Source: Terriglobia bacterium (GTDB lineage Bacteria > Acidobacteriota > Terriglobia > JAIQFV01). From it: a DNA stretch of 60,161 nucleotides. A program made the translations under genes and the position numbers. The notes under the pieces were generated by a model. That model was given only the letters and a program-made list of their open reading frames with translations. It did no database searches and was not told the DNA's origin. The DNA lies in contig JAIQFV010000009.1 in assembly GCA_020073085.1 (NCBI GenBank), positions 1 through 60,161 on the forward strand, given 5' to 3'. This document shows positions 22,472 to 29,277 of the stretch, in pieces. Numbering within the stretch: the stretch's first letter is position 1; each line of letters starts with the position of its first letter.

Positions 22472-22906
22472 ATGCGGAAAAAGAAGCCCACTCGGACTAA
22501 GAAGACTGCCAGTCGAAAGAAGGCAATGAGCCGGAAGAAGACTCTTACCCGGAAAAAGACAACGAACCGCAAGGTGGTGACCCGGCGAAAAAGGGTGACC
22601 CAGCGCAAGACGGTGCCCCGCCGCAAGAAGGCCCCTGTCCGGAAAATCCAATTCGTCAGCGAGGCCGAAGCTGAAAAGGAAAATTTCAGTTCGGTGAGCG
22701 CCGGGCAGTCCGGCGATATCCAGGGACTCTCTCATGTTCCCGAAGGAGACTCAGAGAGTGTCGGGGAGTTGATCGAAGAGGGACAGGCCTTCGAGGCGGG
22801 GGTGATCGAAGGCGTGGAAAATGCGCCCGAGGCCGACGAAGCGGAAGTCACAACAAAAGAAGTTCCTGAGGACGATGTTCCTCAAGAATACCGGGACAAG
22901 GATTGA
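22472..22906 (+). CDS. bipartite basic/acidic protein with H1-like repeats
   Basis: 144 residues. Residues 1-58 are almost only Lys, Arg, Thr, Ala and Ser in a loose repeat of the RKKTxTRK kind, like bacterial histone H1-like or AlgP-type DNA-binding tails. From residue 60 the protein turns acidic (SEAEAEKENF, then EGDSESVGELIEEGQAFEAGVIEGVENAPEA in pieces, ending VPEDDVPQEYRDKD). No membrane segment. The ATG at 22472 has no strong ribosome site. I do not recognise a family with certainty. A nucleic-acid-binding basic tail joined to a folded or disordered acidic half is what is seen; chromatin-like or RNA binding is inference only. Confidence 0.75.
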   Translation: MRKKKPTRTKKTASRKKAMSRKKTLTRKKTTNRKVVTRRKRVTQRKTVPRRKKAPVRKIQFVSEAEAEKENFSSVSAGQSGDIQGLSHVPEGDSESVGELIEEGQAFEAGVIEGVENAPEADEAEVTTKEVPEDDVPQEYRDKD

Positions 22907-22929
22907 CTATTCGCCACCCTAAGGAAATT

Positions 22930-23112
22930 GCGGAATGCGGATTTGGAATTTCGGATTGCGGATTTCAGATTTCGGATGCCGGGCTTTGAAGTAAGTAACG
23001 GGAATTCATTTCGAGCGATCAAGCATTTTCGCTCCGCCTTATTCCATTCCGAACGCCGAAATCCCCAATCGGATTCCGCAATCCGCAATCCGCAACCCAC
23101 ATTCCGCAATCG
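22930..23112. repeat. large imperfect inverted repeat of AATCCGCAAT words
   Basis: 22930-22980 holds GCGGAATGCGGATTTGGAATTTCGG and variants, and 23050-23112 holds the opposite-strand versions (CCGAAATCCCC, ATTCCGCAATCCGCAATCCG). The arms would fold into a long imperfect hairpin around a 70-base loop. The same words occur at 6661-6711 and 52620-52650. No coding potential beyond accidental frames. It resembles a non-autonomous repeated element. Confidence 0.6.
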
Positions 23113-24656: not shown

Positions 24657-27125
24657 TCATTCCCACCTCAAGGCTTCCACAGGATTGACGTTCGATGCGC
24701 GACGTGCCGGGAGGTAACTTGCCAGCAGTGCGACAACGCCGAGAACGATCGTCACCGCGTTATAGGTCACCGGATCGAGCGCACTGACGCCAAACAAGAG
24801 CGCCGTCATGACGCGGGTCGCAAGCATGGCGAAGCCGAGACCCAAAGCTATCCCGATGCAAGTCAACAGAAGCCCGTGCCGCACAAACATCAGGCGGACC
24901 TGCTCCTGCTGGGCCCCCAAAGCCATTCGGATCCCAATCTCCCGTGTTCGCTGGGACACGGCATAGGCGATGACGCCGTAAATTCCCACCACCCCGAGCA
25001 GCAACGCCACTCCGGCTGCGATGCCAAGCATCACCAGGGTAAAGGAGGTCTGCGTCAAGGACTCCTCGAGGATTTCCCGAACGGTCCTCACATTGGCGAG
25101 GGGAAGATTAGAGCTGGTGGCCCATACCCCCTGCTGGACCTCCTTAAAGAAGGAGGGCGAGCCAACTCTCTTGCTTCGAATGGCGTAAGCCATATTTCGC
25201 TGAGCCACCAACTTTTCGCCCCAGAAATTCTCCATCAGCATCGGCCAATACACCTCGGGAGTCGCCTTCCGATTGACACCGTCGTCATGTTCATTGCCCA
25301 CGACCCCCACGATCTCACGCCACGGGTTTTTCGGGGTCTCCCGGATGCGCCCGCCAATGGCTTTGGAGGGATCTTTCCAATATTCCTTTGCCAGGTTTTC
25401 GGTGATGACGGCCACCGGAGCCTTGTTATAAATGTCGGACCAGGTAATATCGCGCCCAATCAAGATAGGATTCCCCATGGTGGCGAAGTAATTCGGCGAG
25501 ATCCACTTGAAGCGGCGGATGGGTGGAATCTGACCCTCCGGCGCGGGAAATTGCTCCACGAAGATGGGATCGTTATCGTCGTTGCCATCCATCGTGACTG
25601 AAGTGGAAAGGCCGACGGAATTGACTCCTGGGATCTGCTCAATTCGCCGCAGAATCTGCTCGTGGGTCCGAACCACCTTCTCCTCGTCAGAAATCTCAGC
25701 CTTTGGAATCGAGACGCGCAGGGTCAGGATCTCCTCCGGGTGGACGAATCCAGGCTGGACCTTTCTCAAGGCCTGGAATGTCCGGATCATCAGTCCGGAG
25801 CTCACTAAGAGGACCAAGGCCGTGGCGATCTGGAAAACGACCAGGACATTCCGCGCCCGGTGGTGTTCCCTGCCCTCGCTGAATGACCGGCCTCCTTCTT
25901 TCAGCGCTGCCGCGAGGTCCGGCCTCGCATACTTGAGAACCGGGATCAGTCCGAAAAAGATCCCCGCCAGCAGCGAGATCCCCAGGGTAAAAAGGAGAAC
26001 CGTTGGATCGATGGAAATCTCATCCAGACGAGGAATGCTCCCCGGCCCCATGGCCACCAGCAGCCGGACTCCCGCGTAAGCCAGGAATAATCCGAACACG
26101 CCGCCCATAATTCCCAGTGAAACACTTTCGAACAGGAGTTCTCGGGCAATCTGAACCCAGCTGGCACCAATGGCGGTACGGATGGCAAGTTCCCTCTGCC
26201 GGCCCTCGGCCCGGACCAGAAAGAGATTGGCCACATTGGCGCACGCAATGAGGAGGACCAGTCCGACAGTCCCCAGCAACACCCACAGAACTTTCCCGAC
26301 GTCTCCCACGGCATCCTGCTTGAGGGGCCGGAGGTTCGGGGCCAGCCTTGCCTCTTCGACCATCTTCATCGAAAACCCGGGAGGAAGAGGGAACTTCTGC
26401 AAGGTGAGGGGGATCATACGGGCCACATCCGCGTTTGCCTGCTCCAAGGTCACGCCGGGTTTGAGCCGCGCAATCGCTTGATGGCTGAAGTTGCCGACAA
26501 ACACTTCGCTGCGGTTAAGCCGGTAAGCCAGGATCACCGATGGATGAGAACGCAAAAACCTGAAACCAGGAGGGAGAACGCCGATCACTTCATGGGGCCG
26601 TCCCTCGATAACGATCCCGCGGCCAATCACGCCGCGATCGCCCCCGAACTTCCGCTGCCAGTAGGGATAAGTCAGGAGGACGGTTTCCGGAGTGCCGGGG
26701 GAATCATCCGCGGCCGTGAAGGTCCGGCCGAGCAACGGCGGGACTCGGAGTAGGGGGAAGATGCCATCTGTCACCATCAAGGCGTCGACTTGCTCGGGCT
26801 CGGCGACCCCCGTGACAGTCACCGATTCGTTACGCCACATGCCGATATCTTCGAAAACCCTGTTTTCTTCGCGATAGGTGAGATGGAATGCCGGCCCCTG
26901 GTTCAACTCGCTGAATCCAAGTCCGGGCGCCTTGTGCCAAACCGCCACCAGCCGTTCAGGATCTTTAAAAGGAAGGGGCTTCAAGAGGACCCCATTCACC
27001 ACGCTAAAGATGGCACTGTTGGCGCCGATACCCACTGCAAGGGTCATCACGACCACGAGCGTAAACAGGGGTGTGCGCCCGAGCCGCCGCATCACCAAAC
27101 GGAGTTTTGTTCCGATGGATGGCAT
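24657..27125 (-). CDS. MacB/FtsX-type orphan ABC permease (ADOP family)
   Basis: 822 residues. TM1 with [25 protein letters not shown] near residue 30; periplasmic domain with [21 protein letters not shown] and [14 protein letters not shown]; middle TM block with [35 protein letters not shown] near 280; second core copy; C-terminal block with [17 protein letters not shown]-like sequence and the close [19 protein letters not shown]. No ATPase and no PadR prefix. The ATG at 27125 has AAGGA 6 bases upstream. The open frame continues upstream through a 96-base tandem repeat that would add three 32-residue units, but these have no signal or membrane character and lie before the ribosome site, so I treat them as leader. 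Confidence 0.92.
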
Positions 27126-27160
27126 AAAGATTCCTTCTATTGAGTTTTCTATCCTTGGGG

Positions 27161-27444
27161 TGCCGCAGGCATTGGCTCCCCACAATGCCTGCGATGAAGA
27201 TCCCCGGGTGAGCCCAACATCGCGTGGCGATGACATTGAGCTCTTTCCCATGCGGGTGCCGCAGGCATTGGCTCCCCACAATGCCTGCGATGAAAATCCC
27301 CGGGTGAGCTCTTCATCGCGGGGCGATGACATTGAGCTCTTTCCCATGCGGGTGCCGCAGGCATTGACTCCCCACAATGCCTGCGATGAAGATCCCCGGG
27401 TGAGCTCAACATCGCGGGGCGATGACATTGAGCTCTTTCCCATG
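27161..27444. repeat. three tandem copies of a 96-base unit carrying two hairpins
   Basis: Copies start at 27161, 27257 and 27353 (exact 96-base period; the last copy is four bases short, and differences are scattered single bases). Each unit contains the perfect inverted repeat GCAGGCATTG / CAATGCCTGC (8-base loop) and, about 45 bases on, CATCGC-n3-GCGATG (one base changed in copy 1). The array lies in the leader of the minus-strand permease gene, 36 bases before its start codon. The period is a multiple of three, so the minus-strand frame stays open. No spacers vary, so this is not a CRISPR. 27445-27620 after it holds nothing I recognise. Confidence 0.9.
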
Positions 27445-27620
27445 TCTGCGATTCCTATCGCAACCTAGATTTCATGTTACGTCGTCGATTGGGAAAAAGT
27501 TCGACATTTCTGGATTTCTGCCGGGCTACATCGATGGACTCTGGAAGGTACTACTCTTGGATTCACTACAAGGGCGCTGGGGCCTGACCGGGGGTCATTC
27601 TGACAATCCCGTTTAGAGTC

Positions 27621-29033
27621 TCAATGGCCGCCTGCTTTCTCCACGGGGAATCCGGCGGTGATCCATGCTCCCGTGCCGCCCACCACGTTGAACAGATTCT
27701 TGAATCCACGCCGGGAAAGAATGCTGGTGGCCGCGCTCGAGCGGTATCCGCCCTGGCAAATCACCGCGAGTGGGCGATTTGAATCGAGCGCCGGACTCGT
27801 CGTGTTCTGTGAAAGTCTTTCGGCCAGATTTGACAGAGGCACATTCACAGCCCCCGGCACATGGCCGGTCTGATACTCGCCCGGACGTCGCACATCGAGC
27901 ACCTGAAGTTGCGGTTGTTCATCCAGGCGGTGCCGGAGCTCATCCACAGGGACCTGGGAAACCGTCGCCAGGGGAAATCCGGCTTTGTCCCATGCGTACA
28001 CCCCGCCTTCCAGAAACCCTTTGACACTCTCGATCCCCACCCGCGCCAGCCGGATGACGGCTTCGTCAACCTTGGCCGATTCTTCGGCGACCAGAATCAA
28101 TGGTGTCCCGGCAGGGATCAGGCATCCGGCCCAGGAGGCAAACTGTCCGCTCAGCCCGATTTGAAGCGCCCCCGGCACGTGACCGGCTCCAAAGGCGGCC
28201 TCGTTGCGGACATCGAGGACGAGATGGCCTTTGCGGCTCAGGGAGTTCACCTCTGCCGGGGAAAAGCCCGCGGGCCGCGGCAATTGTTGAAGCGGGTCTG
28301 CGCCGGTTCGATTGATTTCCGCGTCCCGCGAAAAATAAGCGGGGGCTTCCGGCAGGTCGGTCGTCATCATCGAAATGAATTCGTCCCGCGACATCGGGCG
28401 CAAGGCGTAGTTGAACCGCCGCTGCTCGCCAAGCGTGGATGAGGTATCTTTGGATATGTTGCGGCCGCACATCGAGCCGGCGCCATGAGCGGGATAAACT
28501 TCGACGGCATCATCCAGCGTCAGCAGTTTCTCGTGCAGACTGTCGTAAAGGAATCCGGCCATCTCCGGCGCGGTATAACCTTTCGATCCCACCAGGTCGG
28601 GACGTCCCACATCGCCGATAAAGAGCGTGTCGCCTGTCAGGATTTTTACCGGCTTGTCCGAAACTTCGTTGTCCACGACACAGATGCAAATGCTTTCCGG
28701 CGTGTGACCGGGCGTCTCCAAAATCCGTAACGAGACTTTCCCGACTCGCAATTCATCGCCATCCTTCACGGATCGATACGAAAATGCCGCGCCGGCCTTC
28801 TCTCCAAAGACAACTTCAGCCCCAGTGCGCGCGGCCAATTCGCGGTGTCCACTCACAAAATCGGCATGCAGGTGGGTTTCAATTACGAACCTGATCTTCA
28901 AACCCTGTGCCGAAGCTTCCTGGATGTATTGCTCGATATCCCTTTGCGGGTCGACGACCACGGCATCGCCTTCGGAACCCATCAGGTAGGACGCGTGGGC
29001 CAGGCACCCAAGGTAGAACTGTTTGAAGTACAT
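27621..29033 (-). CDS. persulfide dioxygenase-rhodanese fusion protein
   Basis: 470 residues, cytoplasmic. N-terminal metallo-beta-lactamase fold of the ETHE1 type: H54-x-H56-x-D58 (ETHLHADFVSGH, H63), H110 (ETPGHTPES), D135 (LTGDTLFIGDVGRPDL) and VYPAHGAGSMCGR. Mononuclear-iron ETHE1-type enzymes oxidise glutathione persulfide to sulfite. Two rhodanese domains follow: about 255-350, inactive (VAEES where the cysteine loop should be), and about 365-465, with CQGGYRS. Such fusions couple persulfide oxidation to sulfur transfer. Start ATG 29033, preceded by GGAGACCGCC on its strand. It stands alone between two permease genes; the other sulfur-related gene is the rhodanese protein at 14.8 kb. 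Confidence 0.93.
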   Translation of the reverse strand: MYFKQFYLGCLAHASYLMGSEGDAVVVDPQRDIEQYIQEASAQGLKIRFVIETHLHADFVSGHRELAARTGAEVVFGEKAGAAFSYRSVKDGDELRVGKVSLRILETPGHTPESICICVVDNEVSDKPVKILTGDTLFIGDVGRPDLVGSKGYTAPEMAGFLYDSLHEKLLTLDDAVEVYPAHGAGSMCGRNISKDTSSTLGEQRRFNYALRPMSRDEFISMMTTDLPEAPAYFSRDAEINRTGADPLQQLPRPAGFSPAEVNSLSRKGHLVLDVRNEAAFGAGHVPGALQIGLSGQFASWAGCLIPAGTPLILVAEESAKVDEAVIRLARVGIESVKGFLEGGVYAWDKAGFPLATVSQVPVDELRHRLDEQPQLQVLDVRRPGEYQTGHVPGAVNVPLSNLAERLSQNTTSPALDSNRPLAVICQGGYRSSAATSILSRRGFKNLFNVVGGTGAWITAGFPVEKAGGH

Positions 29034-29103: not shown

Positions 29104-29153
29104 AGGAGATAGGTGAGAGGTGAGAGGTAATAGGTGATAGGGGATAGGTGATG
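29104..29153. repeat. short GATAGGTGA-type tandem repeat
   Basis: Tandem variants of ATAGGTGAG and AGGTGAGAGGTAATAGGTG fill about 50 bases between the persulfide dioxygenase gene and the next permease gene. Similar runs occur at 33662-33688 and 35510-35530. No coding role. Confidence 0.7.
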
Positions 29154-29277
29154 GTGTCGGGTGTCGGGCCACTCCTGGGGTAATCAGGACCGAGAGGGGA
29201 GATAGCGGTATGACCAATGCTCCTCCGCGACCGGTCGTCGACACCCCCTGCCGTCCTCACCGCCCAGTTGCGGTTCG

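Follow-up and report, generated by a model that had tools for sequence, protein, structure and literature searches.

A tandem array of 96-base units upstream of an ADOP-family permease gene is very probably an amplified pair of REP elements

The window analysed here is the whole stretch of 60,161 nucleotides from a Terriglobia bacterium. The array is located in a 495-nt gap between two co-directional genes on the minus strand. On its downstream side is a permease of the ADOP family with MacB_PCD and FtsX domains (24657..27125, minus strand; TIGR03434 with 907 bits against a cut-off of 622.3; PF12704 and PF02687), and on its upstream side a protein with a metallo-beta-lactamase fold and rhodanese (27621..29033, minus strand; PF00753 and PF00581). 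The order of these genes is kept in the sister, one other species of the same genus. From the sequence, AGAAGGA (27132..27138, minus strand; AAGAGGA in the sister) is the likely ribosome-binding site of the permease, and ATG 27125, which follows it, is its likely start codon, not ATG 27443 of the mechanical list of open reading frames. The array, which the preliminary description placed before the permease start codon, is indeed upstream of the gene, 33-319 nt from the likely start, and the listed ATG 27443 is inside it. A scan of 27000-27750 gave a single weak promoter-like site (27624-27597, 0.5 expected), at the far edge of the gap, and no site resembling a terminator, and the Rfam search of the window had no hit at gathering score. 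Elsewhere in the window, at 22567-23111 and 29104-29156, there are imperfect tandem repeats with short units of 7, 18 and 21 bases (ATTTCGG, CCGCAAT and AGGTGAT among these); the second of these stretches has the rhodanese gene on one side and a second ADOP gene on the other.

The array contains 3.0 copies of a 96-base unit (27158-27444; 95% matches and no indels by TRF), and the units are 97-99% identical to their own consensus, in agreement with the three near-identical units described earlier. Each 96-bp unit opens with a 36-nt palindrome, GGGTGC-CGCAGGCATTG-loop-CAATGCCTGCG, here called REP-A. The three copies are on the plus strand at 27158..27193 (tag GGGTGC, 11-bp stem CGCAGGCATTG/CAATGCCTGCG and 8-nt loop), 27254..27289 and 27350..27385, the third with one substitution in the loop. 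The stem of this palindrome, hairpin 1 (GCAGGCATTG/CAATGCCTGC), has 11 base pairs and is perfect in all three copies; the perfect 10-bp stem of the preliminary description is this stem counted without its closing C-G pair. An 11-bp stem was reached in none of 2000 dinucleotide shuffles of unit 1, and a 10-bp stem in two of them, so the stem of hairpin 1 is beyond chance.

The 6-bp stem CATCGC/GCGATG, also described earlier, is present in every unit (cores at 27218..27232, 27314-27328 and 27410-27424, located from the sequence with no strand assigned). However, when the unit-1 spacer was shuffled 2000 times, 205 shuffles had a perfect stem of at least 6 bp, and a stem of this length is thus not beyond chance. 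The actual second stem on the permease strand is longer and bulged: units 1 and 3 have 8+6 bp around a 3-nt bulge (with one G-U pair in unit 1), and unit 2, which differs at two bases, has 6+7 bp. RNA folding, which had been proposed as a check, gives a clear result: on both strands, none of 100 shuffles folds as well as the 331-nt array region (z -5.5 and -7.4), and none of 200 shuffles folds as well as unit 3 by itself (z -3.2). A CRISPR array is ruled out, as the spacers are copies of one another and not unique.

Hairpin 1 belongs to a dispersed set of about a hundred REP palindromes. In the genome of the window (5.79 Mb), a search with the strict stem pattern gave 96 forward matches and 99 reverse ones, against none for the reversed control, with most sites counted once per strand because the pattern is nearly palindromic; this is the count of copies elsewhere in the genome that the earlier description had called for. 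The stem with the tag GGGTGCC is found 50+41 times in this genome and 11+8 times in the sister, and has no exact match in 99 other relatives. A broader tagged pattern gives 69+65 matches in the window's genome, with none for the control. The palindrome (36 nt, 11-bp stem, 8-nt loop) is within the size range of a REP, about 20-65 nt, and by the strict and the broader counts it is both dispersed and high in copy number. The tag differs from the canonical GT[AG]G, as all three copies in the window read GGGTGC. Among the GGGTG-headed copies of both species, other heads such as GTGAGC in locus L081 having been dropped before counting, the next base is C in 89 of 89 REP-A and 13 of 13 REP-B copies. 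With greedy open reading frames of 200 or more residues as a rough proxy for genes, made without a gene caller, 71 of 85 REPs are outside and 14 inside such frames (28 stretches); three of the 14 are the window array, and the frames cover 38% of the bases.

The REP loci fetched for inspection are from contigs C1-C17 and C24 only, among the matches listed. They contain inverted pairs of REP-A (CGCAGGCATG) and a second element, REP-B (CGCAGACATG), for example at L129 and L138, as well as direct arrays with many periods. A regular array on contig C1 of the window's genome (G000; 278860-279684) has REP-B alternating with a variant, CGCACGCATG, in opposite orientation at a spacing of about 172 bp. 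On contig C24 (L012, 790-1152), two similar segments 173 bp apart carry one REP each; one runs into a partial tRNA-Met-like sequence and the other into a tRNA-Met gene (1076-1152).

The second half of the unit has no further copy in the window's genome, where the search returned the array itself and one 16-nt match (E 0.3). By its alignment, the best interpretation is that of a second REP, REP-B, decayed and in direct orientation. The spacer stretches were aligned with three REP-B copies, each alignment being compared with 1000 shuffles. The unit-1 spacer scores 24, 20 and 14, values reached by 1, 22 and 345 of the 1000 shuffles, and the unit-2 spacer, weak on its own, 20, 17 and 10 (15, 72 and 935 shuffles). 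The end of the array with its right flank (27386-27480) has scores of 32, 29 and 20 (0, 0 and 22 shuffles), the last of these matches being weak, and the sequence at the same place in the sister 28, 24 and 28 (0, 4 and 0 shuffles). The window scores best against a REP-B copy located in front of a RAYT gene of the sister (L117, see below). On this reading, the unit-1 spacer (27194..27253, plus strand) would consist of a linker followed by the 5' part and loop of the decayed REP-B (about 27222-27252), the unit-2 spacer (27290..27349, plus strand) would have the same content, and the unit-3 spacer would run on into the unduplicated 3' arm of REP-B (27386..27450, plus strand; arm at 27424-27450, GACATTGAGCTCTTTCCCATGTCTGCG).

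In these alignments, REP-A and REP-B are separated, from head to head, by 64 nt in the window and by 65 nt in the sister, where the REP-A loop is one base longer. As the REP-B remnant is found in both genomes, with the heads at matching distance, their ancestor most likely had a direct REP-A/REP-B pair. The orientation is direct in the window, and the pair is thus not a REPIN or BIME, in which an inverted pair forms the unit. The second hairpin pairs the linker with the 5' part of the decayed REP-B and is perhaps the product of a local template switch.

The orthologous site of the sister has a single REP-A, beside a permease that is 92% identical. Apart from one inserted loop base, this REP-A is identical to that of the window at 36 of 36 positions, compared with 24 of 31 in the adjoining leader and 374 of 427 in an orthologous coding stretch. 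The second hairpin is absent from the sister site. As the copies in the window are 97-99% identical to their consensus, against 374 of 427 for the coding stretch, the triplication is younger than the split of the two species. Differences in the number of direct REP copies are also found elsewhere. The window's genome has more copies than the sister at five of the 13 sister loci, which are the ones with a usable comparison: 3 against 1 in the window, 5 against 2 at L143/L160, 3 against 2 at L142/L157, 4-5 against 2 at L147/L152, and 7 against 1 at L145/L155, plus one more there in the other orientation. Among the remaining sister loci, L150, L151 and L159 are aligned over long flanks and ambiguous at the REP, and five have no long match among the fetched loci.

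The REPs are non-autonomous and would presumably have been spread by RAYT single-strand transposases. A scan with PF01797 gave 19 matches in the window's genome (98.74%-complete assembly), two of them at contig ends; the weak RAYT matches on C38 and at C15:68481 were left out of the inspection. No intact RAYT was seen beside REP-A or REP-B at these 19 loci, and only L033 on contig C3 has heads of the GTGC/GTGG REP type followed by a matching arm. L033 (1465-2429) is also the closest RAYT of this genome; it lacks its N-terminal part and is followed by GTGG-tagged REPs with a related stem, CGCACACATGC. Just downstream of it, a second fragment, which has the N-terminal start that L033 is missing, runs into a GTGG REP. 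Another Y1 transposase gene (L018, contig C30) is flanked by a different hairpin, GGGTGCTG...CAGCACCC.

In the sister, two RAYTs adjoin the same GTGG-type REP as on contig C3, and a third (L117), a full-length open reading frame, is preceded by two GTGC-tagged REP-B copies. Among 12 fetched loci of more or less close RAYTs, GTGC tags are found at L117 only and GT[AG]G tags at L118, L119, L121, L122, L123, L125 and L126. The proteins of L117 and L118, the two sister RAYTs tested, resemble known TnpA-REP/RAYT proteins in that they pass NF047646 (102 bits, cut-off 80), and that of L117 aligns with the solved TnpA-REP structure 4er8 (E 6.8e-6). Unlike the published RAYT subclasses, these RAYTs mostly have the motifs PEH[FV]H and YMHxNP, for which the table in the text of PMC6006769 has no exact row, class 3 of Acidobacteria included. 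The presumed guide-contact stretch reads WLPRSHDIN in a GTGC-linked sister RAYT (L162, 1528-2076) and WQRRFFDMN in a GTGG-linked relative (L169).

The two edges of the array are of different kinds. On the left, no base matches beyond the REP tag, and this edge at the tag points to a tandem duplication provoked by the REP. On the right, the array ends inside REP-B and not at a REP edge, so a simple exchange between two complete REPs cannot explain the first duplication. The duplicated segment starts 0-5 bases from the tag in all eight fetched arrays in which the first spacer was copied whole (the window, L141, L142, L143, L145, L147, L148 and L083), a whole copy being one of at least 80% by our own cut. 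Direct pairs with a partly copied spacer run past the tag, by 43 (L136), 30 (L147, first pair, 238), 20 (L085) and 14 (L081) bases, and so does the L148 array when its opposite strand is read, by 44 bases. The rule of the tag as edge is therefore not universal among REP arrays.

We consider it very probable that the array is a tandem amplification of a pair of REP elements. As both genomes suggest, REP-A and REP-B would have been located between the permease and the rhodanese gene in the common ancestor of the two species, in direct orientation and at a distance of about 64 nt. A segment that begins at the REP-A tag and ends within the 3' arm of the decaying REP-B would then have been triplicated in the lineage of the window, after the split. 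The first duplication could be due to slippage of replication or a strand switch at the hairpin, or to end joining after RAYT nicking, and further growth to slippage or unequal exchange between the copies. Since the 19 PF01797 loci of the genome showed no intact cognate RAYT, changes in copy number at the present day may be due to recombination alone.

The array could also have been built directly by a RAYT transposase, through cleavage at the tag and rejoining, rather than by slippage or recombination. The start of the duplicated segment within 5 bases of the tag in the eight whole-spacer arrays is consistent with this, as is the sister RAYT preceded by two REP-B copies; cleavage of REPs and strand transfer by TnpA-REP are described in the text of PMC8266576. 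We nevertheless regard a direct build as unlikely, given that an intact cognate RAYT was not seen at the 19 loci of the window's genome, that the partly copied pairs extend past the tag, and that the dinucleotide before the REP-A tag varies (CG 22, CC 13, TC 13 and GC 12 of 81 distinct upstream 12-mers). Hairpins by themselves also provoke slippage.

A role in the expression of the permease is still less likely. The array might be a selected RNA leader, in which hairpins in the 5' UTR regulate translation, stability or termination and the copy number tunes the effect, and a regulatory leader had been suggested in the preliminary description. The identity of REP-A between the two species, which exceeds that of the adjoining leader and the coding stretch, is the one result in favour of constraint on the hairpin. 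The array region also folds strongly and is just upstream of the permease start, with both flanking genes kept in the sister. On the other hand, conversion among REP copies could also give the same conservation of hairpin 1 at one site, and its palindrome is found at about a hundred other places in the genome. The second hairpin is absent from the sister, the copy number is 3 in one species and 1 in the other, and there is neither an Rfam family match nor a terminator-like site. In the second stem, one substitution keeps a G-U pair (unit 1), two break pairs (unit 2), and none is compensatory. A single copy in relatives, with hairpins not conserved, had been named in the preliminary description as the refuting outcome; the result is divided, as the one sister available for comparison is single-copy and conserves hairpin 1 and not hairpin 2. 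On these grounds we consider a selected leader improbable. The alternative raised with it, a short mobile repeat that expanded, is supported by the dispersed REPs, the related palindromes beside RAYTs, the single orthologous copy in the sister and the differences in copy number elsewhere. It is scarcely credible that the repeats encode a repeated N-terminal extension of the permease, of 32 residues per unit. The reading frame is open through all copies into the permease, as stated earlier, and ATG 27443 is available, but the open frame is a by-product, as three of the six frames are open across the array and the permease frame of the sister is closed by stops upstream of the start. Moreover, the ADOP family match begins at residue 113 of the long open reading frame, just past the start at 27125, and a good ribosome-binding site is located immediately before this ATG. 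A protein-coding repeat was rejected on the open frames and the closed frame of the sister.

The genome has several arrays of this kind, and the amplified REP pair seems to reflect genomic drift and not a switch built for the gene. Its hairpins would be transcribed if a leader or read-through transcript spans the array, and any effect on the permease transcript would be a side effect. A striking repeat in a leader is in this way settled as one member of a genome-wide REP population. This population reshapes the upstream regions of genes: the old pair persists across the species split, and the copy number shifts around it.

Tandem REP arrays are already known. Arrays that include flanking DNA are described in Pseudomonas fluorescens SBW25 (text of PMC3116915), and Di Nocera 2013 (text of PMC3733652) describes clusters in which REPs are repeated in tandem together with flanking DNA that varies in length. 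The elements of the window resemble the REPs and REPINs of SBW25 in being short, tagged, high-copy palindromes with inverted pairs elsewhere and ordered tandem arrays with flanking DNA. They differ from them in the tag, GTGC and not GTAG, in the acidobacterial host, and in the direct head-to-tail arrays that are common in the fetched loci. With the GTAG REP superfamily, as given in the text of PMC3733652, they share the tandem clusters with flanking DNA and the association with RAYTs, and they differ from it in the fourth base of the tag, C. The published tag is GTAG, with variants at positions 2 and 3, according to the text of PMC3733652, and GT[AG]G according to that of PMC6006769, where classes 2.6 and 3 are without such a tag. 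The unusual feature here is the 5' tag, which reads GTGC and not GT[AG]G. A text search of the literature (article text, without figures and supplements) gave no match for GTGC beside a RAYT. The acidobacterial TIRs mentioned in the text of PMC3733652 may be the same elements as the GTGC REPs, and the REP table of a 2025 survey with broad criteria, as seen in the text of PMC12306157, includes three Acidobacteriota genomes.

The contigs of 84,980 species were scanned with the L117 protein, giving at least 80 loci, two of which are the sister contigs. The RAYT motif was found in 61 of the 80 loci listed, 23 of them with and 38 without a tagged hairpin, defined as a GG+GT[AG][GC] foot within the scanned RAYT flanks. 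The commonest tag among the matches listed is GTGC in 20 of the 23 loci and GTGG in three. By contig name, the 23 loci are from 14 genomes, with seven loci from one genome (DLMH01), and among the matches listed 12 of these 14 genomes have the GTGC tag beside a RAYT, including one Verrucomicrobia record (L192). GTGC hairpin feet account for 44 of 298 feet near RAYTs, compared with 7 of 162 in other parts of these loci. Feet reading CCAT, CCAC and AAGA are also common near RAYTs (33, 33 and 24), where they presumably represent the opposite end of the hairpins.

We tentatively propose, as a possibility that falls somewhat short of probable, that the window repeats belong to a GTGC-tagged class of REP that prevails for Acidobacteriota RAYTs, with a cut predicted at GC and not CT, and with residue 101 maybe involved. 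A change of the tag in one REPtron shifted its cut site predictably, as described in the text of PMC8266576. By our extension of this guide-pairing rule, the changed fourth base of the guide tetranucleotide is predicted to place the cut at GC rather than CT. If GTGC is a working guide, Acidobacteriota would offer a natural set of retargeted REP transposases in which to test how guide, protein and cut site are linked. A fixed dinucleotide before the tag, as a GC cut site would lead one to expect, is unsupported, as GC leads among REP-B (6 of 13) and not among REP-A (12 of 81).

The residue that corresponds to E. coli H101, as we read it from the L117/4er8 alignment and the residue list in the text of PMC6006769, is F in 19 and I in one of the GTGC cases and M in all three GTGG cases. 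F is also usual at this position in the 38 RAYTs without a tagged hairpin, and the counts are not independent of kinship. Q95 was rejected as tracking the GTGC tag, as 17 of the 20 GTGC-linked RAYTs keep WQ. Position 101 fits the tag better than Q95 but is confounded by kinship. In records of Acidobacteriota and one of Verrucomicrobia, GGGTGC-tagged hairpins are found beside the RAYTs of L162, L170-L177, L180-L182, L192, L204-L206, L214, L224, L229 and L230.
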